A DNA stretch of 64,000 bases from assembly GCF_000756385.1 (NCBI RefSeq), contig NZ_JNFC01000045.1, positions 1-64,000 on the forward strand, given 5' to 3'. Within the stretch, counting starts at the first letter, position 1; every line of letters starts with the position of its first letter. This document shows, one piece after another, positions 16,388 through 22,853 of the stretch. Source of the DNA: Sphingopyxis sp. LC363. GTDB taxonomy: Bacteria; Pseudomonadota; Alphaproteobacteria; Sphingomonadales; Sphingomonadaceae. The notes under the pieces were generated by a model. It worked only from the letters and a program-made list of their open reading frames with translations. It made no database searches and had not been told where the DNA came from. Position numbers and translations under genes: made by a program.

Positions 16388-17413
16388 TTGACGACGCTTA
16401 TTACCGGCGCGGCCGGGTTCATCGGAATGCACGTCGGGGCAGCCCTGCTCGGTCGCGGCGAGTGCGTCGTCGGCATCGACAATTTTACACCCTATTACTC
16501 GCTCGATCTCAAACATGCGCGCGTCGCGCATCTCTACGCACGCTATGGCGAATTGTTCACCTTTATAGATGTCGATTTTGGCGATGCCGACGCGCTCGCC
16601 GCTGCGCTTTCCAGCCACGGGATCGACCGGATCGTCCATCTCGGCGCACAGCCCGGCGTCCGCTATTCGCTAGAAAATCCCGCTGCTTATATTCATTCGA
16701 ACGTCGCGGGGCACGTCAACATTCTCGAGCTGGCGCGCCACCGCTCGGTCGCGCATCTGGTTTATGCGTCGTCGTCGTCGGTCTATGGCATGCGCGCCAG
16801 TACGCCCTTTCGCGTGGCCGACCGCGCCGATACGCCGATTTCGCTATATGCGGCGACGAAACGGGCGGACGAATTGCTTAGCGAAACCTATGCACATCTC
16901 TTCAGGATACCCCAAACCGGCCTTCGCTTTTTCACAGTTTATGGCCCGTGGGGGCGGCCCGACATGGCGGTCTGGAAATTCACCGAGGCGGTTCTCCAGG
17001 GCCGGCCGATCGACGTCTATAATCACGGCGACATGCTCCGTGATTTCACCTTCATCGACGATATCGTCAACGGCGTCGTCCTGGCGCTCGATTACCCGCC
17101 CGAAGACGACCACCGCGAGAAGCCGGGTGGTTTCACGACGCCGCACCGGCTTTACAACATCGGGAATAACCGCCCCGAACAACTTACCGAACTTATCCGT
17201 GCGATCGAAATGGCGTGCGGTCGCAAGGCGGAAATCAGCCTGCTGCCGATGCAAGACGGCGACGTCTATCAGACGGCCGCGGATATCGCCGATATCAGCC
17301 GCGATCTAGGCTTTGCACCGACTACCCCGATCACTACCGGAATACCTGCTTTTGTCGCTTGGTATCGGGAGGAATGGATGAAGCGGCAGGAAACGGTTCC
17401 GAGCAAGGCGTGA
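16388..17413 (+). CDS. UDP-glucuronate 4-epimerase (NAD-dependent SDR epimerase)
   Basis: The 341-residue protein starts at a TTG with AGGGGA upstream. It has the GAAGFIG nucleotide motif (residues 7-13), DNFTPYYSLDLK, LGAQPGVRYSLENP, SSSSVYG and YAATK (the Tyr-x3-Lys catalytic pair), and TVYGPWGRPDMA. This pattern is that of LspL/Cap1J-type enzymes, which convert UDP-glucuronate to UDP-galacturonate for capsules or EPS. It stands alone, upstream of the convergent bufferin operon. Confidence 0.9.
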   Translation: MTTLITGAAGFIGMHVGAALLGRGECVVGIDNFTPYYSLDLKHARVAHLYARYGELFTFIDVDFGDADALAAALSSHGIDRIVHLGAQPGVRYSLENPAAYIHSNVAGHVNILELARHRSVAHLVYASSSSVYGMRASTPFRVADRADTPISLYAATKRADELLSETYAHLFRIPQTGLRFFTVYGPWGRPDMAVWKFTEAVLQGRPIDVYNHGDMLRDFTFIDDIVNGVVLALDYPPEDDHREKPGGFTTPHRLYNIGNNRPEQLTELIRAIEMACGRKAEISLLPMQDGDVYQTAADIADISRDLGFAPTTPITTGIPAFVAWYREEWMKRQETVPSKA

Positions 17414-17419
17414 CGCGTC

Positions 17420-18067
17420 CTACCAGCGCAAGAAACGCGGAAGGACCAGCCGCCCCGCAATCGCCGAAAGCAGAACCGCTGCGCCGTGCCAGAGCGCGAT
17501 GTGGACAACGTCATCGGTCGCGCAATGAAGCGCGACGATGGTCGCGCCCGCAGCCCCCGCGGCGATACCGATGACCCAGCCCGCGCGCGTCGGCGACGTC
17601 GGCGCGCCGGCCTTGAGCCAGAAGAAGAGCGCCGCGCCAACTCCCAAGCCCGATGCGACGCCTTGCAAGAGGCAGCGCAGGCCAAAGCCGTGGCGCGCGG
17701 ATTCCATCGCCGCATGGCCGTCGGTGATGCACGCGACGAGGGCCGCTAGCGGCAGCGACAGCGAGGCACCGACCGCCCAACGCCAGCCGCCATAATCGCG
17801 CCCGACACCCGGCAACCCCATGCGCAGAGCGCTCCATGTCGCGGCAAGTCCCGTCGCCGCGGTCAACCAGAAGGCGAGCATCGAAAGCGGCGGCATTCCG
17901 CTCACCGCCAGGTCCTCGCGCAAGCCGAAGATCCACAGCAACGCCGCGGCGCCCGCGACCCATCCGGCCGCGACCCATATGGACCCGCGCGCAACGCGCC
18001 GCGGCCGCACGGGCGTCAAGTCCCCGGCGAGGTCGTCGATCAGATCATCGATCGATGCGTCCTTCAT
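17420..18067 (-). CDS. nrsF: NrsF-type anti-sigma factor (DUF1109 membrane protein)
   Basis: This 215-residue protein has a short cytoplasmic N-terminus (MKDASIDDLIDDLAGDL) and six hydrophobic segments, the DUF1109/NrsF layout. NrsF holds the ECF sigma factor SigF at the membrane and releases it on redox or metal stress. Two conserved-type cysteines are visible (ACITDGHAA and LRCLLQG). The ATG at 18067 is one base after the sigF stop and is preferred to an upstream TTG. It is the last gene of the bufferin operon. Confidence 0.9.
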   Translation of the reverse strand: MKDASIDDLIDDLAGDLTPVRPRRVARGSIWVAAGWVAGAAALLWIFGLREDLAVSGMPPLSMLAFWLTAATGLAATWSALRMGLPGVGRDYGGWRWAVGASLSLPLAALVACITDGHAAMESARHGFGLRCLLQGVASGLGVGAALFFWLKAGAPTSPTRAGWVIGIAAGAAGATIVALHCATDDVVHIALWHGAAVLLSAIAGRLVLPRFLRW

Positions 18068-18068
18068 T

Positions 18069-18590
18069 TCATTCGCTTTCAATCAGTTCGGCAAGCTTCT
18101 TGAGCCCGCGGTGGATATTCACTTTGACGAGCGACTCGCTCTGCCCGCAAATCTGCGATGCCTCGGCTATCGATGCGCCTTCGATCTTGACCAGCGTGAT
18201 CGCCTGCGCCTGCCTTGGCGGCAACAGCGTCAGCAGATGATCGATGCTCAGCCGCGCATGGACCGCTTCATCCTCGGCGCCGACCGCTGCATCATTGTCG
18301 CCGAGTTCGGCCTCGTCACGCTGGCGACGCAGCATGTCGATCCAGCGATAACGCGCTATCGCCGCGAGCCATGGCAGAAACGCCCGCCCGCTGTCCCATG
18401 TCGCAAGCTTGCGGTGCATCGACACCAGCGTTTCCTGCACAAGATCGTCGATATGGTGCGGCGCGATCCGCCGGGCGAAATAACGTTCGAGCCATTTGCG
18501 GCAATCGACAAGCAACGCGCGATAGGCGCTGCGATCCCCCCGCTGCGATGCGGCCATCAAGCGCGCCAGCGAAGGTTCGTCGATGCTCAT
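18069..18590 (-). CDS. sigF: ECF sigma factor SigF
   Basis: The 173-residue protein has sigma region 2 (DDLVQETLVSMHRKLATWD, about residues 49-67, and FLPWLAAIARYRWIDMLRR) and region 4 (LPPRQAQAITLVKIEG, SESLVKVNIHRGLKKL). The sequence and the NrsF partner place it with SigF-type ECF factors, known in Caulobacter to respond to metal or oxidative stress. It overlaps the doxX stop by four bases (ATGA). It should recognise the GTAAC-N16/17-CGAA promoter in front of bufA, closing a positive loop. Confidence 0.95.
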   Translation of the reverse strand: MSIDEPSLARLMAASQRGDRSAYRALLVDCRKWLERYFARRIAPHHIDDLVQETLVSMHRKLATWDSGRAFLPWLAAIARYRWIDMLRRQRDEAELGDNDAAVGAEDEAVHARLSIDHLLTLLPPRQAQAITLVKIEGASIAEASQICGQSESLVKVNIHRGLKKLAELIESE

Positions 18591-19045
18591 TTCGCGCGCA
18601 CCCTAGCAATCAGCGCGTCGAGCGAGAACAGTCCGCCGCCGCGAACGATCAGGATCGCCGCCATCGCCGCCCACAGCGAATGGACCGGCCACCAAGCGTC
18701 GGGAAAGACGAAGATCTGGATGACGAGCGTCATCACGAGCAGGGCGCCCGCCGACAATCGCGTTGCGAGCCCGAAAAGCAGCAACGCCGGGAAAAAATGC
18801 TCGGAAAATGTCGTTAGCGGCACTGCTATCGCGGGATCGAGCGGCAGCCCCGAAAATTCGCTGCGGAACAGATCATATTGCGAGGGATCGATCTTGAGGA
18901 AGCTGCCCTCGAGCACCTTCGTCTGCCCCGATCGCCAAAAGACGCCCGCGAGCGAGACGCGCAGCAGCAACAGCGCGGCCCCTTCGGCGAGCCGCGACCC
19001 CGCAATGGCTACGCTCTTGTCATAAAATCCCGTTATCGCATTCAT
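18587..19045 (-). CDS. DoxX-family membrane protein
   Basis: The 152-residue protein has four hydrophobic segments and the DoxX signature RVSLAGVFWRSGQTKVLEG near residue 30, then PALLLFGLATRLSAG and FPDAWWPVHSLWA. DoxX proteins commonly follow bufABC genes and may supply a quinone-linked redox step, but the role is not established. It lies three bases after bufC and overlaps sigF. Confidence 0.9.
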   Translation of the reverse strand: MNAITGFYDKSVAIAGSRLAEGAALLLLRVSLAGVFWRSGQTKVLEGSFLKIDPSQYDLFRSEFSGLPLDPAIAVPLTTFSEHFFPALLLFGLATRLSAGALLVMTLVIQIFVFPDAWWPVHSLWAAMAAILIVRGGGLFSLDALIARVRAK

Positions 19046-19048
19046 CGC

Positions 19049-19747
19049 TCAAACCCTCTCGAAAGCCCCGGCCTCGATGAGCGCCGCGATTGCGGCGCCG
19101 CCGTCCGGATGCTGTTCGGCAAGATGCGCGATGAGGTTACCGATGTGCGCGATTTCTTGAGCCATGCCGATCGCGGCTGCCGCAGCCTGTTCGATCGCGA
19201 ACAGGCGGACTTCGGCGTCGGGGCGCGTAACGAGCAGCGCCCGCGTATCGGACGCAAAGGCCGGATCGGTCAACGGCGCGGCGTCGCTGGAAAGCACCAC
19301 GACACGCGTTGCCGGGTGAAGCCGGACCGGAAGGCTGAGCAGGCCGGCTTCGCCGAGGGCGAGCAGATCGGCGAGGGCCAGCGCGAGTGCATCGGCTGCG
19401 TGATAGCTTTCGAGCCAGGCCCATTCGACGCGCGCGAGGTCGGCGGCGCGCGGATCAGCGAGCCGTTCGGCAAAGGTCTCGCCAATGTCGTTCAACGGCC
19501 GGCGTCCCGCCCCGCCTTCTTCGACAAAGCGGCGCGACAGACGGTTGAATTCCTCGTCGCCCAGATAAGCACGCGTGCGCGGGAACGTTTCTTCGAGCGC
19601 GACGAGGCGCGCGTGCGATATGGTGTTGGCGTGAACGCGAAGCCCGCGCAGCACGGTGGCCTCGCCTCCCGCAAACAGGTTGGGCGGCAGATGGGCGGGG
19701 CCGCGCAGCAAGGTCGCAGCTATCGCCGCCTGCCCGGGCTCAAGCAT
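19049..19747 (-). CDS. bufC: Bufferin maturation partner BufC (DUF2063)
   Basis: The 232-residue protein begins with an N-terminal DUF2063 domain: LLRGPAHLPPNLFAGG, then GLRVHANTISHARLVALEETFPRTRAYLGD and FVEEGG. The C-terminal half is winged-helix-like. DUF2063 proteins bind the DUF692 enzyme and recruit the precursor peptide, so this is the partner of BufB. It overlaps the end of bufB by eight bases and shares its operon. Confidence 0.92.
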   Translation of the reverse strand: MLEPGQAAIAATLLRGPAHLPPNLFAGGEATVLRGLRVHANTISHARLVALEETFPRTRAYLGDEEFNRLSRRFVEEGGAGRRPLNDIGETFAERLADPRAADLARVEWAWLESYHAADALALALADLLALGEAGLLSLPVRLHPATRVVVLSSDAAPLTDPAFASDTRALLVTRPDAEVRLFAIEQAAAAAIGMAQEIAHIGNLIAHLAEQHPDGGAAIAALIEAGAFERV

Positions 19748-20603
19748 GAGCGGGCGTCCACAGCAGTGCGTCGGCCTTCGCCACCTCGGCGATCAAGGTC
19801 GCGTAATCGGGAATGTCGCTGTCCCATTCGACCAGCACGGGCCTTGGGCCGGATCGGTCGAGGAATCGGGCCAGCAGGTCCCAGCAGCTCGCACGCACCG
19901 GCGACCCATGATCGTCGATCGCGATCGTACCGCCCATATCGTCGTCCTTGACCGCGTGACCCGCGACGTGGATTTCGCCGACATGGCGTGGATCGAAGCA
20001 GTCGAGCCAGGCCACCGTATCGAGCCCGAGGTTGAAGGCCGAAACCTCGACATTGTTGATATCGAGCAGCAGACCGCAGCCGCTGCGCCGGCAAAGTTCG
20101 TGAAGGAAATCGACCTCGCTCCAATCGTCACCAGCATAAGCGAGGTAGCGCGACGGATTTTCGATCAGGATCCGCCGGCGCAGCCGGTCCTGCACACGGC
20201 CGACTTCGGCGGTGAAATGGTCGAGCGCCGCGTGGCTATAGGGGATCGGCAGGAGGTCCGGAAATTTGTCGTCGGGCCCGTTGCTCCAGCTGAGATGATC
20301 GGAAACCATCGCAGGATCATAACGAAGGCAAAGCGCCGCGAGCGCTTCGAGTTCGCCCTCGTCCACGCCCGCCGCCGAGCCCAGCGACAGCCCGACCGAA
20401 TGAAAGCTGATCGGCAGATGCTCGGCGATCGCGGTCAGCCAGCGGTGCGGCGGCCCGCCCGCGCCGAAGTAATTCTGGGGGTGGACTTCGGCCCAGGCGG
20501 GCGCCCTTCCCTGCTCCGTCGCTGCCAGCACATCGGCATAATGCTGCGGCTTGAGGCCGATGCCGGCGCGTACCGGCAGCGTCGAAAGCAGGGAAGCGAT
20601 CAC
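19740..20603 (-). CDS. bufB: Bufferin-modifying enzyme BufB (DUF692, multinuclear iron oxygenase)
   Basis: The 287-residue protein is a DUF692 TIM-barrel enzyme. Metal-ligand segments are visible in order: AEVHPQNYFG, FHSVGLSLGS, DHLSW, ILIENPSRYL, LLLDINNVEVSAFN and GEIHVAGH. Such enzymes oxidise cysteines of the precursor to thiooxazole-type heterocycles. Its substrate is the product of the gene six bases upstream. It overlaps bufC. Confidence 0.95.
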   Translation of the reverse strand: MIASLLSTLPVRAGIGLKPQHYADVLAATEQGRAPAWAEVHPQNYFGAGGPPHRWLTAIAEHLPISFHSVGLSLGSAAGVDEGELEALAALCLRYDPAMVSDHLSWSNGPDDKFPDLLPIPYSHAALDHFTAEVGRVQDRLRRRILIENPSRYLAYAGDDWSEVDFLHELCRRSGCGLLLDINNVEVSAFNLGLDTVAWLDCFDPRHVGEIHVAGHAVKDDDMGGTIAIDDHGSPVRASCWDLLARFLDRSGPRPVLVEWDSDIPDYATLIAEVAKADALLWTPAHA

Positions 20604-20609
20604 GGTCGG

Positions 20610-20906
20610 TTAGCCCTTCTTGGCAACCGGCTTGGCGTTGCCCTTGTGCGCGGCCAAGGTGCCGCCCATCTTCACGCAGCTGCCAGCGGGCACATGCTTC
20701 CAGGCATTGCCCTGATAGTCGACGGTCGAGGTGCCAGCGCAGCTCGTGCCCGGTCCGGCGGCGCAGTCGTTCTTGCCCTTCAGCGCGACGCCATAGCATT
20801 TTTCCTTGGCGCCCTCGGCGGCGACGGCGGTGCCGCCGATCGCGGTGCCCGCGGCCATGGCGAGGACGGCCGAAGCGGCGAGCGACAGTTTCAGTGCATT
20901 GGTCAT
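20610..20906 (-). CDS. bufA1: Bufferin precursor BufA1 (DUF2282, copper-buffering RiPP)
   Basis: The 98-residue precursor has a Sec signal of about 30 residues ending AVAA, and a mature part with four cysteines at 37, 48, 56 and 77 (EKCYG, NDCAAG, TSCAG, GSCVK). This is the DUF2282 bufferin pattern, in which central cysteines are cyclised to bind copper in the periplasm. A strong AAGGGAG precedes the ATG. It is the first gene of bufA-bufB-bufC-doxX-sigF-nrsF. Confidence 0.95.
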
Positions 20907-20958
20907 GATGATCTCCCTTTTGAGAAATGAATGATGCGGAGGATGGCATCGTCATGGG

Positions 20959-20984
20959 TTCGCGGGAGAAGGTGCGAAAGTTAC
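20959..20984 (-). promoter_or_regulatory. SigF-type promoter of the bufferin operon
   Basis: On the minus strand GTAACT (20984-20979) and CGAA (20962-20959) are separated by 16 bases. This matches the SigF consensus reported for Caulobacter (GTAACC-N16-CGAA). It lies about 55 bases upstream of the bufA1 start codon. With sigF in the same operon it predicts autoinduction. Confidence 0.75.
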
Positions 20985-21073
20985 GCCGAGGCGGGAGACA
21001 ATGATTTGGCAGGGTAACTCCGATAGAATAGGCCCGGATCGAACGAGGACGCGCGAATGGAGACAAGCAAGGC

Positions 21074-22090
21074 ATGAATATTCTGCTCACCGGCGGCGCC
21101 GGCTATATCGGAAGCCATGTCGCGGCGCCGCTGGTGTCGGCGGGGCACGGCGTCGTCTGCTTCGACAATCTGTCGAACAGCGACCCAGCGGTGATGGATC
21201 GGCTCGAGGCGATCACCGGCCATTCCGTTCCGCTCGTCACCGGCGACATCCGCGACGGCGATGCGCTGCGCGAAGTGCTGCGGGACCATAAGATCGACGC
21301 CGTGATCCACTTCGCGGGGCTGAAGGCGGTCGGCGAGTCGGTTGCCGAGCCCATGAAATATTACGACAATAATGTTCGCGGCACTTTGTCGCTGCTCGAA
21401 GCGATGGCCGATTGCGGGGCCAAGACGCTCGTCTTCTCGTCAAGCGCGACCGTTTATGGCCAGCCGCAATATCTGCCGCTCGACGAGAATCATCCGACGT
21501 CGGCGACCAATCCCTATGGCCGCACCAAGCTGATGATCGAGGAGATGCTTGCCGACGTCGCCGCCGCCGACCCCGAATGGCGCATCGCGATCCTGCGCTA
21601 TTTCAACCCCGTCGGCGCGCACGACAGCGGACTGATCGGCGAGAATCCCAACGGCATTCCGAACAATCTGATGCCCTTCGTCAGCCGTGTCGCTGCCGGG
21701 CGGCTCGCCGAGCTGTCGGTATTCGGCAACGATTACGACACGCCCGACGGCACCGGGGTGCGCGACTATATCCACGTCGTCGATCTCGCCGAGGGCCATG
21801 TCGCGGCGCTCGGCGCAATCGCGAAGAGCGAAGAAGCGCTGTCGATCTGGAACCTCGGGACCGGTCAGGGCTATTCGGTGCTCGACATGGTCGAAGCGTT
21901 CGAACGCGTGAACGGCGTCCGCATCCCCTATCGCATCGCGCCGCGCCGCGACGGCGATGTCGCGAGCTGTTTCGCCAGCCCCGACCGCGCCGCGCGCGAA
22001 CTGGGCTGGAAGGCCGAGCGCGGTCTCGACGCGATGTGCGCGTCGAGCTGGAACTTCGAGCGCACGCTCGCGGGGCGCAATTCGGACTAG
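21074..22090 (+). CDS. galE: UDP-glucose 4-epimerase
   Basis: The 338-residue protein is a canonical GalE: GGAGYIGSH (residues 7-15), CFDNLSNS, IHFAGLKAVGES, SSSATVYG and NPYGRTK (Tyr-x3-Lys), then RYFNPVGAH and GVRDYIHVVDLAEGH. It interconverts UDP-glucose and UDP-galactose for surface sugars. Its TAG stop lies inside the CTAG duplicated by the IS insertion at 22091-23146, so the gene is intact in spite of the insertion. Confidence 0.96.
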   Translation: MNILLTGGAGYIGSHVAAPLVSAGHGVVCFDNLSNSDPAVMDRLEAITGHSVPLVTGDIRDGDALREVLRDHKIDAVIHFAGLKAVGESVAEPMKYYDNNVRGTLSLLEAMADCGAKTLVFSSSATVYGQPQYLPLDENHPTSATNPYGRTKLMIEEMLADVAAADPEWRIAILRYFNPVGAHDSGLIGENPNGIPNNLMPFVSRVAAGRLAELSVFGNDYDTPDGTGVRDYIHVVDLAEGHVAALGAIAKSEEALSIWNLGTGQGYSVLDMVEAFERVNGVRIPYRIAPRRDGDVASCFASPDRAARELGWKAERGLDAMCASSWNFERTLAGRNSD

Positions 22091-22437
22091 GCCGTAGACT
22101 CATAAACCCGCAACCGCAGCCGCATTGAGGCGAGTTGGACCATGGCGAGGAAGTTTTCGGCTAGCTTGTCGTAGCGGGTGGCGATGCGTCGAAAGTGCTT
22201 CAGCTTGGAGAAGAAGCGTTCGATGAGGTTCCGCTCGCGATAGAGCCAAGTGCTGAAGTACGGTTTTGACCGGCGGTTGGACTTGGGTGGGATATTGGCG
22301 AACGCGCCCCTTTCGCGGAGAGACGCCCGGATGCGGTCGGCATCATATGCCTTATCGGCCAGCACTATCGTTCCGGCACCAATATGGTCGAGCAGGCCAT
22401 CGGCAGCTTGGCCGTCATGGCATTGACCAGCGGTCAA
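22087..22437 (-). CDS. IS5-family transposase, second reading frame (C-terminal half)
   Basis: This frame holds the second catalytic Asp (VLADKAYDAD) and the catalytic Glu (RNLIERFFSKLKHF with RIATRYDK), the C-terminal half of the DDE transposase. It is joined to the first frame by a -1 frameshift at the A5-G5 run at 22530-22540; before the listed start the frame is open up to that run (TTKIHAVVDGQG, SLTAGQCHDG). Its stop TAG is not in the element but in the CTAG target duplication. Confidence 0.88.
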   Translation of the reverse strand: MTAGQCHDGQAADGLLDHIGAGTIVLADKAYDADRIRASLRERGAFANIPPKSNRRSKPYFSTWLYRERNLIERFFSKLKHFRRIATRYDKLAENFLAMVQLASMRLRLRVYESTA

Positions 22438-22439
22438 GC

Positions 22440-22853
22440 TCAGTCGGATCGGGAGGCCTTGCCCATCGACGACAGCGTGGATTTTGGTTGTAAGCCCGCC
22501 TCGGGAACGACCGAGACAGTGATCTCGATCCCCCTTTTTGCCGTCGCGGCCTGTTGATGGGCGCGAACGGAAGTGCTGTCGATCATCTGGATATCGCCAT
22601 CATGCGCGGCGGTGATGGTATCCATCATCCGATCCCAGATGCCCGCCTTCCGCCATCGCACGAAGCGGTTGTAGCAGGTGGTGCGCGGGCCATAGCGTTC
22701 CGGCAGGTCGCGCCACGGTGCCCCGGAGCGCAGCACCCAGAAGATACCATTCAGCACGCGGCGGTCATCGACACGCGGAATGCCCCTGGGCTTGTTGGGC
22801 AGGAGCGGCTCGATCACGCGCCACTCGAAGTCGGTCAGGTCATATCGGCTCAT
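22440..22853 (-). CDS. IS5-family transposase, first reading frame (N-terminal half)
   Basis: The 137-codon frame contains the N-terminal DUF4096-type domain (YDLTDFEWRVIEPLLP, VLNGIFWVLRSGAPWRDLP) and the first catalytic Asp (IQMIDSTSVRAHQQA). After AATAKRG the frame changes to unrelated sequence. A -1 shift on AAAAAGGGGG at 22530-22540 restores the family sequence (KGDRDHCLG...). This is the usual programmed frameshift of IS427-type elements, so the element may be active. Confidence 0.88.
   Translation of the reverse strand: MSRYDLTDFEWRVIEPLLPNKPRGIPRVDDRRVLNGIFWVLRSGAPWRDLPERYGPRTTCYNRFVRWRKAGIWDRMMDTITAAHDGDIQMIDSTSVRAHQQAATAKRGIEITVSVVPEAGLQPKSTLSSMGKASRSD
22530..22540 (-). promoter_or_regulatory. 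Programmed -1 frameshift site of the transposase
   Basis: On the minus strand the run is G-C-A5-G5. A -1 slip on the A run moves the ribosome from the first to the second transposase frame and restores the conserved order of DDE motifs. Confidence 0.65.

Follow-up and report, generated by a model that had tools for sequence, protein, structure and literature searches.

Operon and putative promoters

We analysed a bufferin operon of Sphingopyxis sp. LC363 and two putative promoters for its extracytoplasmic function (ECF) sigma factor SigF, one of which lies within the coding sequence of bufC. The operon is located in a stretch of 64,000 nucleotides (nt) of contig NZ_JNFC01000045.1 (positions 1 to 64,000), which will be called the window. 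The gene order is bufA1-bufB-bufC-doxX-sigF-nrsF, all six genes are on the minus strand, and the intergenic gaps are +6, -8, +3, -4 and +1 nt. This order had been proposed in a preliminary description of the locus, and is borne out by the reading frames, the small gaps and the Pfam families; all six proteins exceed the cut-offs of their Pfam families. The features are the following:

20959..20984, minus strand: P1, GTAACT-N16-CGAA, predicted to be the SigF-type promoter for all six genes, 52 nt 5' of the bufA1 ATG
20610..20906, minus strand: bufA1, Buf1 bufferin precursor of 98 amino acids; Pfam DUF2282, 86.1 bits (cut-off 22.4)
19740..20603, minus strand: bufB, MNIO bufferin maturase; PF05114 (MbnB_TglH_ChrH), 307.8 bits; NCBIfam MNIO_BufB, 329 bits (cut-off 310)
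19049..19747, minus strand: bufC, DUF2063 partner protein, with P2 in its 3' end; PF09836, 47.8 bits (cut-off 27.2)
19115..19140, minus strand: P2, predicted intragenic SigF-type promoter in the 3' end of bufC, GTAACC-N16-CGAA, 69 nt 5' of the doxX ATG
18587..19045, minus strand: doxX, DoxX-family membrane protein of 152 amino acids, without cysteine; PF07681, 56.8 bits
18069..18590, minus strand: sigF, ECF sigma factor; PF08281 and PF04542 (ECF sigma regions 4 and 2) above cut-off; NCBIfam sigma70-ECF, 72.7 bits (cut-off 42.9)
17420..18067 (from ATG), minus strand: nrsF, membrane anti-sigma factor; PF06532, 134.4 bits (cut-off 26.8)

An alternative in-frame start of nrsF is the TTG at 18082. 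Genome-wide there is one match above cut-off each for MNIO (PF05114), DUF2282 and NrsF; a second NrsF match is below the cut-off and carries stop codons.

The published SigF consensus is GTAACC-N16-CGAA (PMC3511200; here and below, papers are cited from the parts consulted), and in Caulobacter it is backed by promoter fusions (PMC3511200). The preliminary description had reported a promoter before bufA1 matching this consensus with exact 16-base spacing, and had considered it the only visible one. For P1 the spacing is indeed exact, the match is 9 of the 10 consensus positions. The second statement does not hold: P2, on the same strand as the operon, agrees with the consensus at 10 of 10 positions, and its start site is expected near 19108. 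The single-promoter picture thus appears to be wrong or incomplete, since with a second, better SigF site inside bufC the genes doxX-sigF-nrsF could be transcribed apart from bufABC. P1 and P2 are the only matches to GTAAC-N17-CGAA in the window; shuffled sequences had 0.12 matches on average, and one of 100 shuffles had two or more. No sigma-70-type promoter was found in 17300-21200.

Operon layouts in related bacteria

NrsF is present in 95 of 199 genomes of the family. Besides the window's own, 104 of the 109 listed NrsF matches were fetched, giving 105 loci with the window; five were left out, namely two that scored under the cut-off, two short fragments and half of a split match. The single operon seen in the window (layout I) occurs in 18 of the 105 loci. 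In layout II (24 loci) bufCBA is divergent from bufA-doxX-sigF-nrsF, in layout III (11 loci) doxX-bufA is divergent from sigF-nrsF, and in layout IV (44 loci, two of them without a recognised sigF) the fetched stretch contains neither buf genes nor doxX. In three loci bufABC follows nrsF and doxX is missing, four are partial, and one is of another kind. Type IV loci, e.g. L080 and L111, possess nrsF, and 42 of the 44 also sigF, with no buf genes within the fetched stretch. Inspected by eye, 21 of the 24 type II loci (e.g. L072, L075, L089) have a six-cysteine, Buf2-like precursor on the bufB-bufC side, divergent from the four-cysteine Buf1 precursor that stands with doxX-sigF-nrsF.

An outside set comprised 60 further loci, the higher-scoring part of the matches, all but one from outside the family. 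bufB was found in 24 of these, and 20 had a Caulobacter-like arrangement (doxX-bufC-bufB, mostly with bufA, divergent from sigF-nrsF). L178 was the sole single operon among the 24, thus in these samples the single-operon layout is mainly a sphingomonad feature. A third sample consisted of 80 loci from named genomes, from which four duplicates were removed (two of the 43 type I loci and one each of the 10 type II and 25 type IV loci). In the SigF tree the single-operon loci do not form one clade and at least four changes are forced; because the backbone of the tree is open, we do not state the number of origins of the layout.

Conservation of the site in bufC

All 18 single-operon loci of the family have GTAAC-N17-CGAA in bufC (GTAACC in 16, GTAACT in 2), in 17 of them at the aligned place. 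The motif was not found in any of 35 bufC genes from three other layouts (0/22, 0/10 and 0/3), nor in that of L070, a locus that is not type I, overlaps L050 and was not counted in the 35. It is also absent from 16,626 nt of type I bufB. The 41 non-duplicate single-operon loci from named genomes, some of which are close kin, gave a similar picture: 39 had the exact site in bufC, one had it with one mismatch and one was without. When synonymous codons were shuffled with the protein sequence kept, the mean chance of finding the site in the last 300 nt of bufC was 0.037 per locus.

Codon usage at the site was analysed in 57 aligned bufC genes, a set rich in Sphingopyxis. These were 59 genes minus those of L138 and L248, two exceptional loci discussed below; the same two were excluded from the backgrounds and from the 16 representatives, and L138 from the set of 17 family genes. 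The -35 codon always has the form xGT (background 289/2526), although the encoded residue is Gly in 45, Cys in 5, Arg in 4 and Ser in 3 genes. The codon preceding the Glu of the -10 element ends with C in 56 of the 57 genes over ten different residues (background 4198/10282), and the Glu codon itself is GAA in all 57 (504/847 elsewhere). The product of the four background rates is 0.016 per locus. Sixteen representatives with less than 60% protein identity all keep the pattern, for which the probability would be about 1e-29 if they were independent; as independence is not exact, this value serves as a scale only. Among the 235 codon columns of the 17 family genes, only the -35 codon and the codon before the -10 Glu combine an invariant third base with a residue identity below 0.6. 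The residues vary while the wobble bases stay, thus the DNA of the site itself seems to be under selection.

Sites upstream of sigF

Scoring of the region upstream of sigF left out 11 loci, four without a recognised sigF and seven without a start. Among the scored family loci, a site with at most one mismatch was present in 18/18 of type I, 24/24 of type II, 9/11 of type III and 30/41 of type IV, the control motif in 1/18, 0/24, 0/11 and 1/41, respectively. The values for types I, II and IV of the named sample were 40/41, 9/9 and 23/24 (control 1/41, 0/9 and 0/24). In the outside set 19 of 52 scored loci had the site and 4 of 52 the control, which indicates that the plain consensus fits less well outside the family.

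Seven loci (L213, L214, L217-L220 and L222; six labelled Sphingopyxis and one Sphingomonadaceae bacterium) have neither buf genes nor doxX beside sigF, and in these an exact site is found upstream of sigF, with its first base 70 to 126 nt away. Five of the seven were aligned with P1 of three operon-bearing genomes, and stretches on the galE side are shared. Such a picture is consistent with a deletion after which P1 stands before sigF. A second locus, L249, which is a single operon, exists in at least one of these strains, LC81.

Some single-operon loci carry further exact SigF-type sites, shortly before nrsF in L101, L102 and L109. Such additional sites were also seen shortly before sigF in L120, L128 and L132.

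Putative SigF sites elsewhere in the genome

In the genome of the window, sites with an exact core are found 29 nt before gor (glutathione reductase), 31 nt before egtB (ergothioneine synthesis), 66 nt before a gene for a small secreted peptide (with a neighbour that looks TolC-like by eye), and 8 nt before a gene for cytochrome b561 that adjoins the only Oxidored_molyb (PF00174) gene of the genome. Six of the 13 sites in this genome (L004, L005, L006, L008, L013, L014) are inside reading frames or precede doubtful ones. The L006 site, GTAACA-N16-CGAA, is inside the 3' end of a frame upstream of an rpoH-like heat-shock sigma gene (by eye). At L007 an exact site stands 30 nt before a protein with a below-cut-off match to a YHS domain.

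The gor and egtB sites were compared in 40 Sphingopyxis genomes. The gor site was exact in 29 of 33 genomes with NrsF (two more had one mismatch) and in none of six without NrsF (one had one mismatch); the egtB site was exact in 27 of 33 (two more with one mismatch) and in none of five, respectively. The corresponding Fisher p values, 6e-5 and 9e-4, overstate the case, because the test ignores kinship and some of the 40 genomes are close kin. G947, whose sole NrsF match scores below the cut-off and contains stops, was counted in the group without NrsF. No start codon stands at the assumed start of egtB in G954, G952, G960 and G944 or of gor in G942; egtB of G952 was scored as site-less on such an assumed start, and in G960 and G944 the egtB upstream region has lost the -35 element. 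Two NrsF-positive genomes, G935 and G944, lost both sites; the SigF encoded at the only NrsF locus of G935 is 64% like that of the window. These data suggest that in Sphingopyxis SigF probably reaches gor and egtB.

The site before the secreted-peptide gene was rejected as a test of the regulon: the copies are probably mobile, several diverged copies have no site, and G960 has the site without NrsF. This Cys/Met peptide occurs at L003 and L399-L406; eight copies in different Sphingopyxis genomes have at least 98% protein identity, which suggests recent transfer of a probably mobile gene.

Proteins of the operon and neighbouring genes

BufA1 has the four cysteines of Buf1 precursors (Cys37, Cys48, Cys56 and Cys77), and its N-terminus resembles a Sec signal peptide by eye. 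Cys48 and Cys56, which the preliminary description had singled out, are both present and form the central pair. BufB passes the curated bufferin-maturase model (NCBIfam MNIO_BufB) and is related to PDB entry 3bww. BufC scored 26.2 bits with the NCBIfam HvfC model, under the cut-off of 142, and had no sequence match in the PDB up to an E value of 1. The closest named relatives of SigF are those of Sphingopyxis italica and Sphingopyxis sp. JAI108 (99% identical).

Two cysteines of NrsF, Cys132 and Cys182 in the numbering from ATG (137 and 187 from TTG), are 50 residues apart; of 165 aligned sequences, 164 have the first and 152 the second, and 2 have the third cysteine of the window's NrsF. With the NCBIfam equivalog model AntiSigF_NrsF this protein scored 49 bits, under the cut-off of 300.

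DoxX fits its Pfam family, and with the curated HvfX model NCBIfam matur_HvfX_fam it scored 43.4 bits, under the cut-off of 80. An AlphaFold2 model of DoxX (mean pLDDT, the predicted local distance difference test score, 94.6) had its best fold matches in NACHO (Z 11.4) and vitamin K gamma-carboxylase (Z up to 9.2), with a best Foldseek E value of 0.15. Vitamin K-dependent gamma-carboxylase is a quinone enzyme. The modelled fold gives a weak hint of quinone binding by DoxX, the E values being weak and the likeness of helical bundles perhaps reflecting a common arrangement. GigT, the DoxX protein of Cupriavidus, has been proposed to feed electrons of copper(I) into the quinol pool (PMC10304878); the fold of the DoxX model agrees with such a role, but this is only a hint.

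The operon is flanked by a divergent galE-like gene starting at 21074 and by a convergent epimerase-family gene ending at 17413. Downstream of galE, at 22087-22853 on the minus strand, two adjoining frames have translations that look, by eye, like parts of a single transposase broken by a frameshift.

Interpretation

In our view the locus is, with high probability, a Buf1 bufferin operon controlled by the SigF-NrsF pair that it encodes, in which one SigF promoter is nested inside the unit of the other, and SigF probably also acts on gor and egtB. This reading is built on the observed gene content, the conserved cysteines, the conservation of P1 and P2, and the loss of the gor and egtB sites together with NrsF; the transcripts and the chemistry described below are predictions. 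Periplasmic copper or another thiol-reactive metal would be sensed through the two conserved cysteines of NrsF (in Caulobacter the metal was chromium), and SigF would be released from NrsF, as in Caulobacter. Reading P1, SigF would produce a message from bufA1 to nrsF, and reading P2 a shorter doxX-sigF-nrsF message, so that the switch and DoxX would be amplified independently of the bufferin and the enzymes that mature it. BufA1 would be exported and, by analogy with its family, Cys48 and Cys56 would be converted to thiooxazoles by BufBC, and the mature peptide would bind copper. The same SigF would probably also drive gor and egtB in Sphingopyxis, making the bufferin one arm of a copper and thiol response.

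With good but somewhat lower confidence we propose a more specific view: the bufC site would be a dual-coded SigF promoter, held by selection in sphingomonad single-operon loci, which divides the operon into an effector unit and an inner unit, doxX-sigF-nrsF, that amplifies itself, and in Sphingopyxis the SigF response would have widened to a copper/thiol regulon including glutathione reductase and ergothioneine synthesis.

Several observations weigh against these proposals. P1 has one mismatch to the consensus (GTAACT). Genome-wide the motif is not enriched (13 matches compared to 19 for the reversed control), thus the motif alone is weak evidence, and the weight falls on position and conservation. 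Under a stricter rule applied to the 57-gene set (third base at least 98% the same, commonest residue below 70%), the -10 codon column alone stands out; the -35 column does not pass, because its residue is Gly in 79% of the genes. L248 is a single-operon locus without P2, and L178, the only single-operon locus found outside the family, has no internal site. L138 has lost the site at the aligned place and carries an exact one further upstream in bufC; the chance of this in the shuffle test is 0.05, so the displaced site is only suggestive. As to the wider regulon, besides the kinship of the genomes, in the NrsF-negative G181 and G942 the sequence upstream of gor cannot be recognised as the same region. 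G944, with NrsF and a SigF that is 91% like that of the window, has nevertheless lost the gor and egtB sites (at its locus bufA directly precedes doxX, with no bufB or bufC between), and G960, without NrsF, has an exact site before the secreted-peptide gene of a putative copper operon. Finally, in S. granuli egtB/egtD have been placed under EcfG, the sigma factor of the general stress response (PMC7083833); EcfG and SigF could both act on egtB.

Among other explanations, the one that survives best is that the inner promoter mainly serves DoxX or NrsF, topping up the anti-sigma factor and damping the response. We regard this as possible but rather unlikely, and it is compatible with the nested-promoter reading. 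P2 would indeed transcribe nrsF along with sigF, and three single-operon loci have an extra exact site shortly before nrsF. However, P2 precedes doxX and sigF, so both would also be made, and in the seven loci without buf genes and doxX the site stands before sigF.

It is improbable that the sites are real promoters mainly used by another sigma factor such as EcfG. In S. granuli EcfG uses GGAAC-N16-CGTT, in which the -10 box is loose, and its regulon was reported to contain egtB/egtD (PMC7083833); in Caulobacter a second factor helps to transcribe sigF (PMC3511200). The sites described here, however, have GTAACC and not GGAAC as -35 element and CGAA as -10 element, those of gor and egtB decay in genomes lacking NrsF, where EcfG is presumed to remain, and the site accompanies sigF in the four family layouts far more often than the control motif does.

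Least probable of all, and very unlikely in our judgement, is that the bufC site is a by-product of a conserved protein motif (x-N-L-x...E) and P1 is the sole promoter of the operon: the Asn and Glu are invariant in the 57 aligned proteins, hence part of the site sequence is fixed by the protein, but the codon before Asn always ends with GT whether it encodes Gly, Cys, Arg or Ser, the final C before Glu (56/57) and the GAA codon persist over ten preceding residues, and 16 of 16 representatives, selected with the two exceptions set aside, keep the pattern.

Bufferin operons with a built-in SigF-NrsF pair are known, and the predicted inner promoter offers a way in which one such operon could tune its switch apart from its product. 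A promoter kept in coding sequence despite amino acid change would be a well-defined instance of dual coding that lends itself to testing. Judging from the gor and egtB sites, bufferins may be part of a wider copper and thiol programme, which opens a direct route to the questions of what SigF senses and why DoxX is kept with it.

Comparison with known systems

The proposal of the preliminary description, a SigF-controlled bufferin operon with its own SigF-NrsF pair, is well supported by the gene content, the NrsF cysteines and the conserved sites, and is largely known from Caulobacter (PMC3511200, PMC8224329) and from a survey of MNIO enzymes (Antoine et al. 2025, PMC12452194). The self-amplification that it predicted is consistent with the putative promoters. 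What is new is the conserved putative promoter inside bufC and the probable reach of SigF to glutathione and ergothioneine genes, both of them results at the level of sequence. Our literature search, which did not surface the founding bufferin paper, found no report of a promoter inside bufC.

The survey reports that genes of a sigma factor and NrsF occur in Buf1 clusters, as in the window; promoters are outside the parts of the survey consulted here (PMC12452194). It also states that such genes are absent from Buf2 clusters (PMC12452194), which the mixed type II loci, classified by eye, do not fit.

In Cupriavidus metallidurans the gigPABT and rpoQ-rsqA genes are likewise a bufferin-type cluster beside an ECF sigma/anti-sigma pair, and gig is induced by copper and gold (PMC10304878). 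There the arrangement is divergent, unlike in the window, and the consulted parts of that paper do not show dependence of gig on RpoQ (PMC10304878).

Another close counterpart is the SigF-NrsF regulon of Caulobacter crescentus (CC3252-CC3257, CC2905-2907, CC2748), which has the same families (DUF2282, DUF692, DUF2063, DoxX, SigF, NrsF) and the same consensus. The targets of SigF there are two operons, DUF2282-DUF692-DUF2063-DoxX and DUF2282-DUF692-DUF2063, and an Oxidored_molyb gene (PMC3511200). The last finds a parallel in the genome of the window, where a SigF site precedes the cytochrome b561 gene beside the only PF00174 gene. The eight genes given as SigF-dependent under chromium stress in Caulobacter include neither gor nor egtB (PMC3511200). 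NrsF inhibits SigF, changing its two conserved cysteines raised SigF-dependent expression, and release of SigF was shown for chromium (PMC3511200); the spacing of 50 residues between these cysteines is common to the window (132/182) and Caulobacter (131/181). Copper induces the whole SigF set of Caulobacter and a sigF mutant is copper sensitive (PMC8224329); for the locus in the window copper induction is a prediction. Auto-regulation of Caulobacter sigF was weak under chromium and cadmium (PMC3511200); with copper sigF rose by 4.4-4.7 log2 units in minimal and 2.2-2.8 log2 units in rich medium (PMC8224329). The arrangement differs: in Caulobacter sigF-nrsF and the buf operon are distinct, each with a promoter of its own, whereas in the window six genes form one apparent operon, which carries the additional site in bufC.

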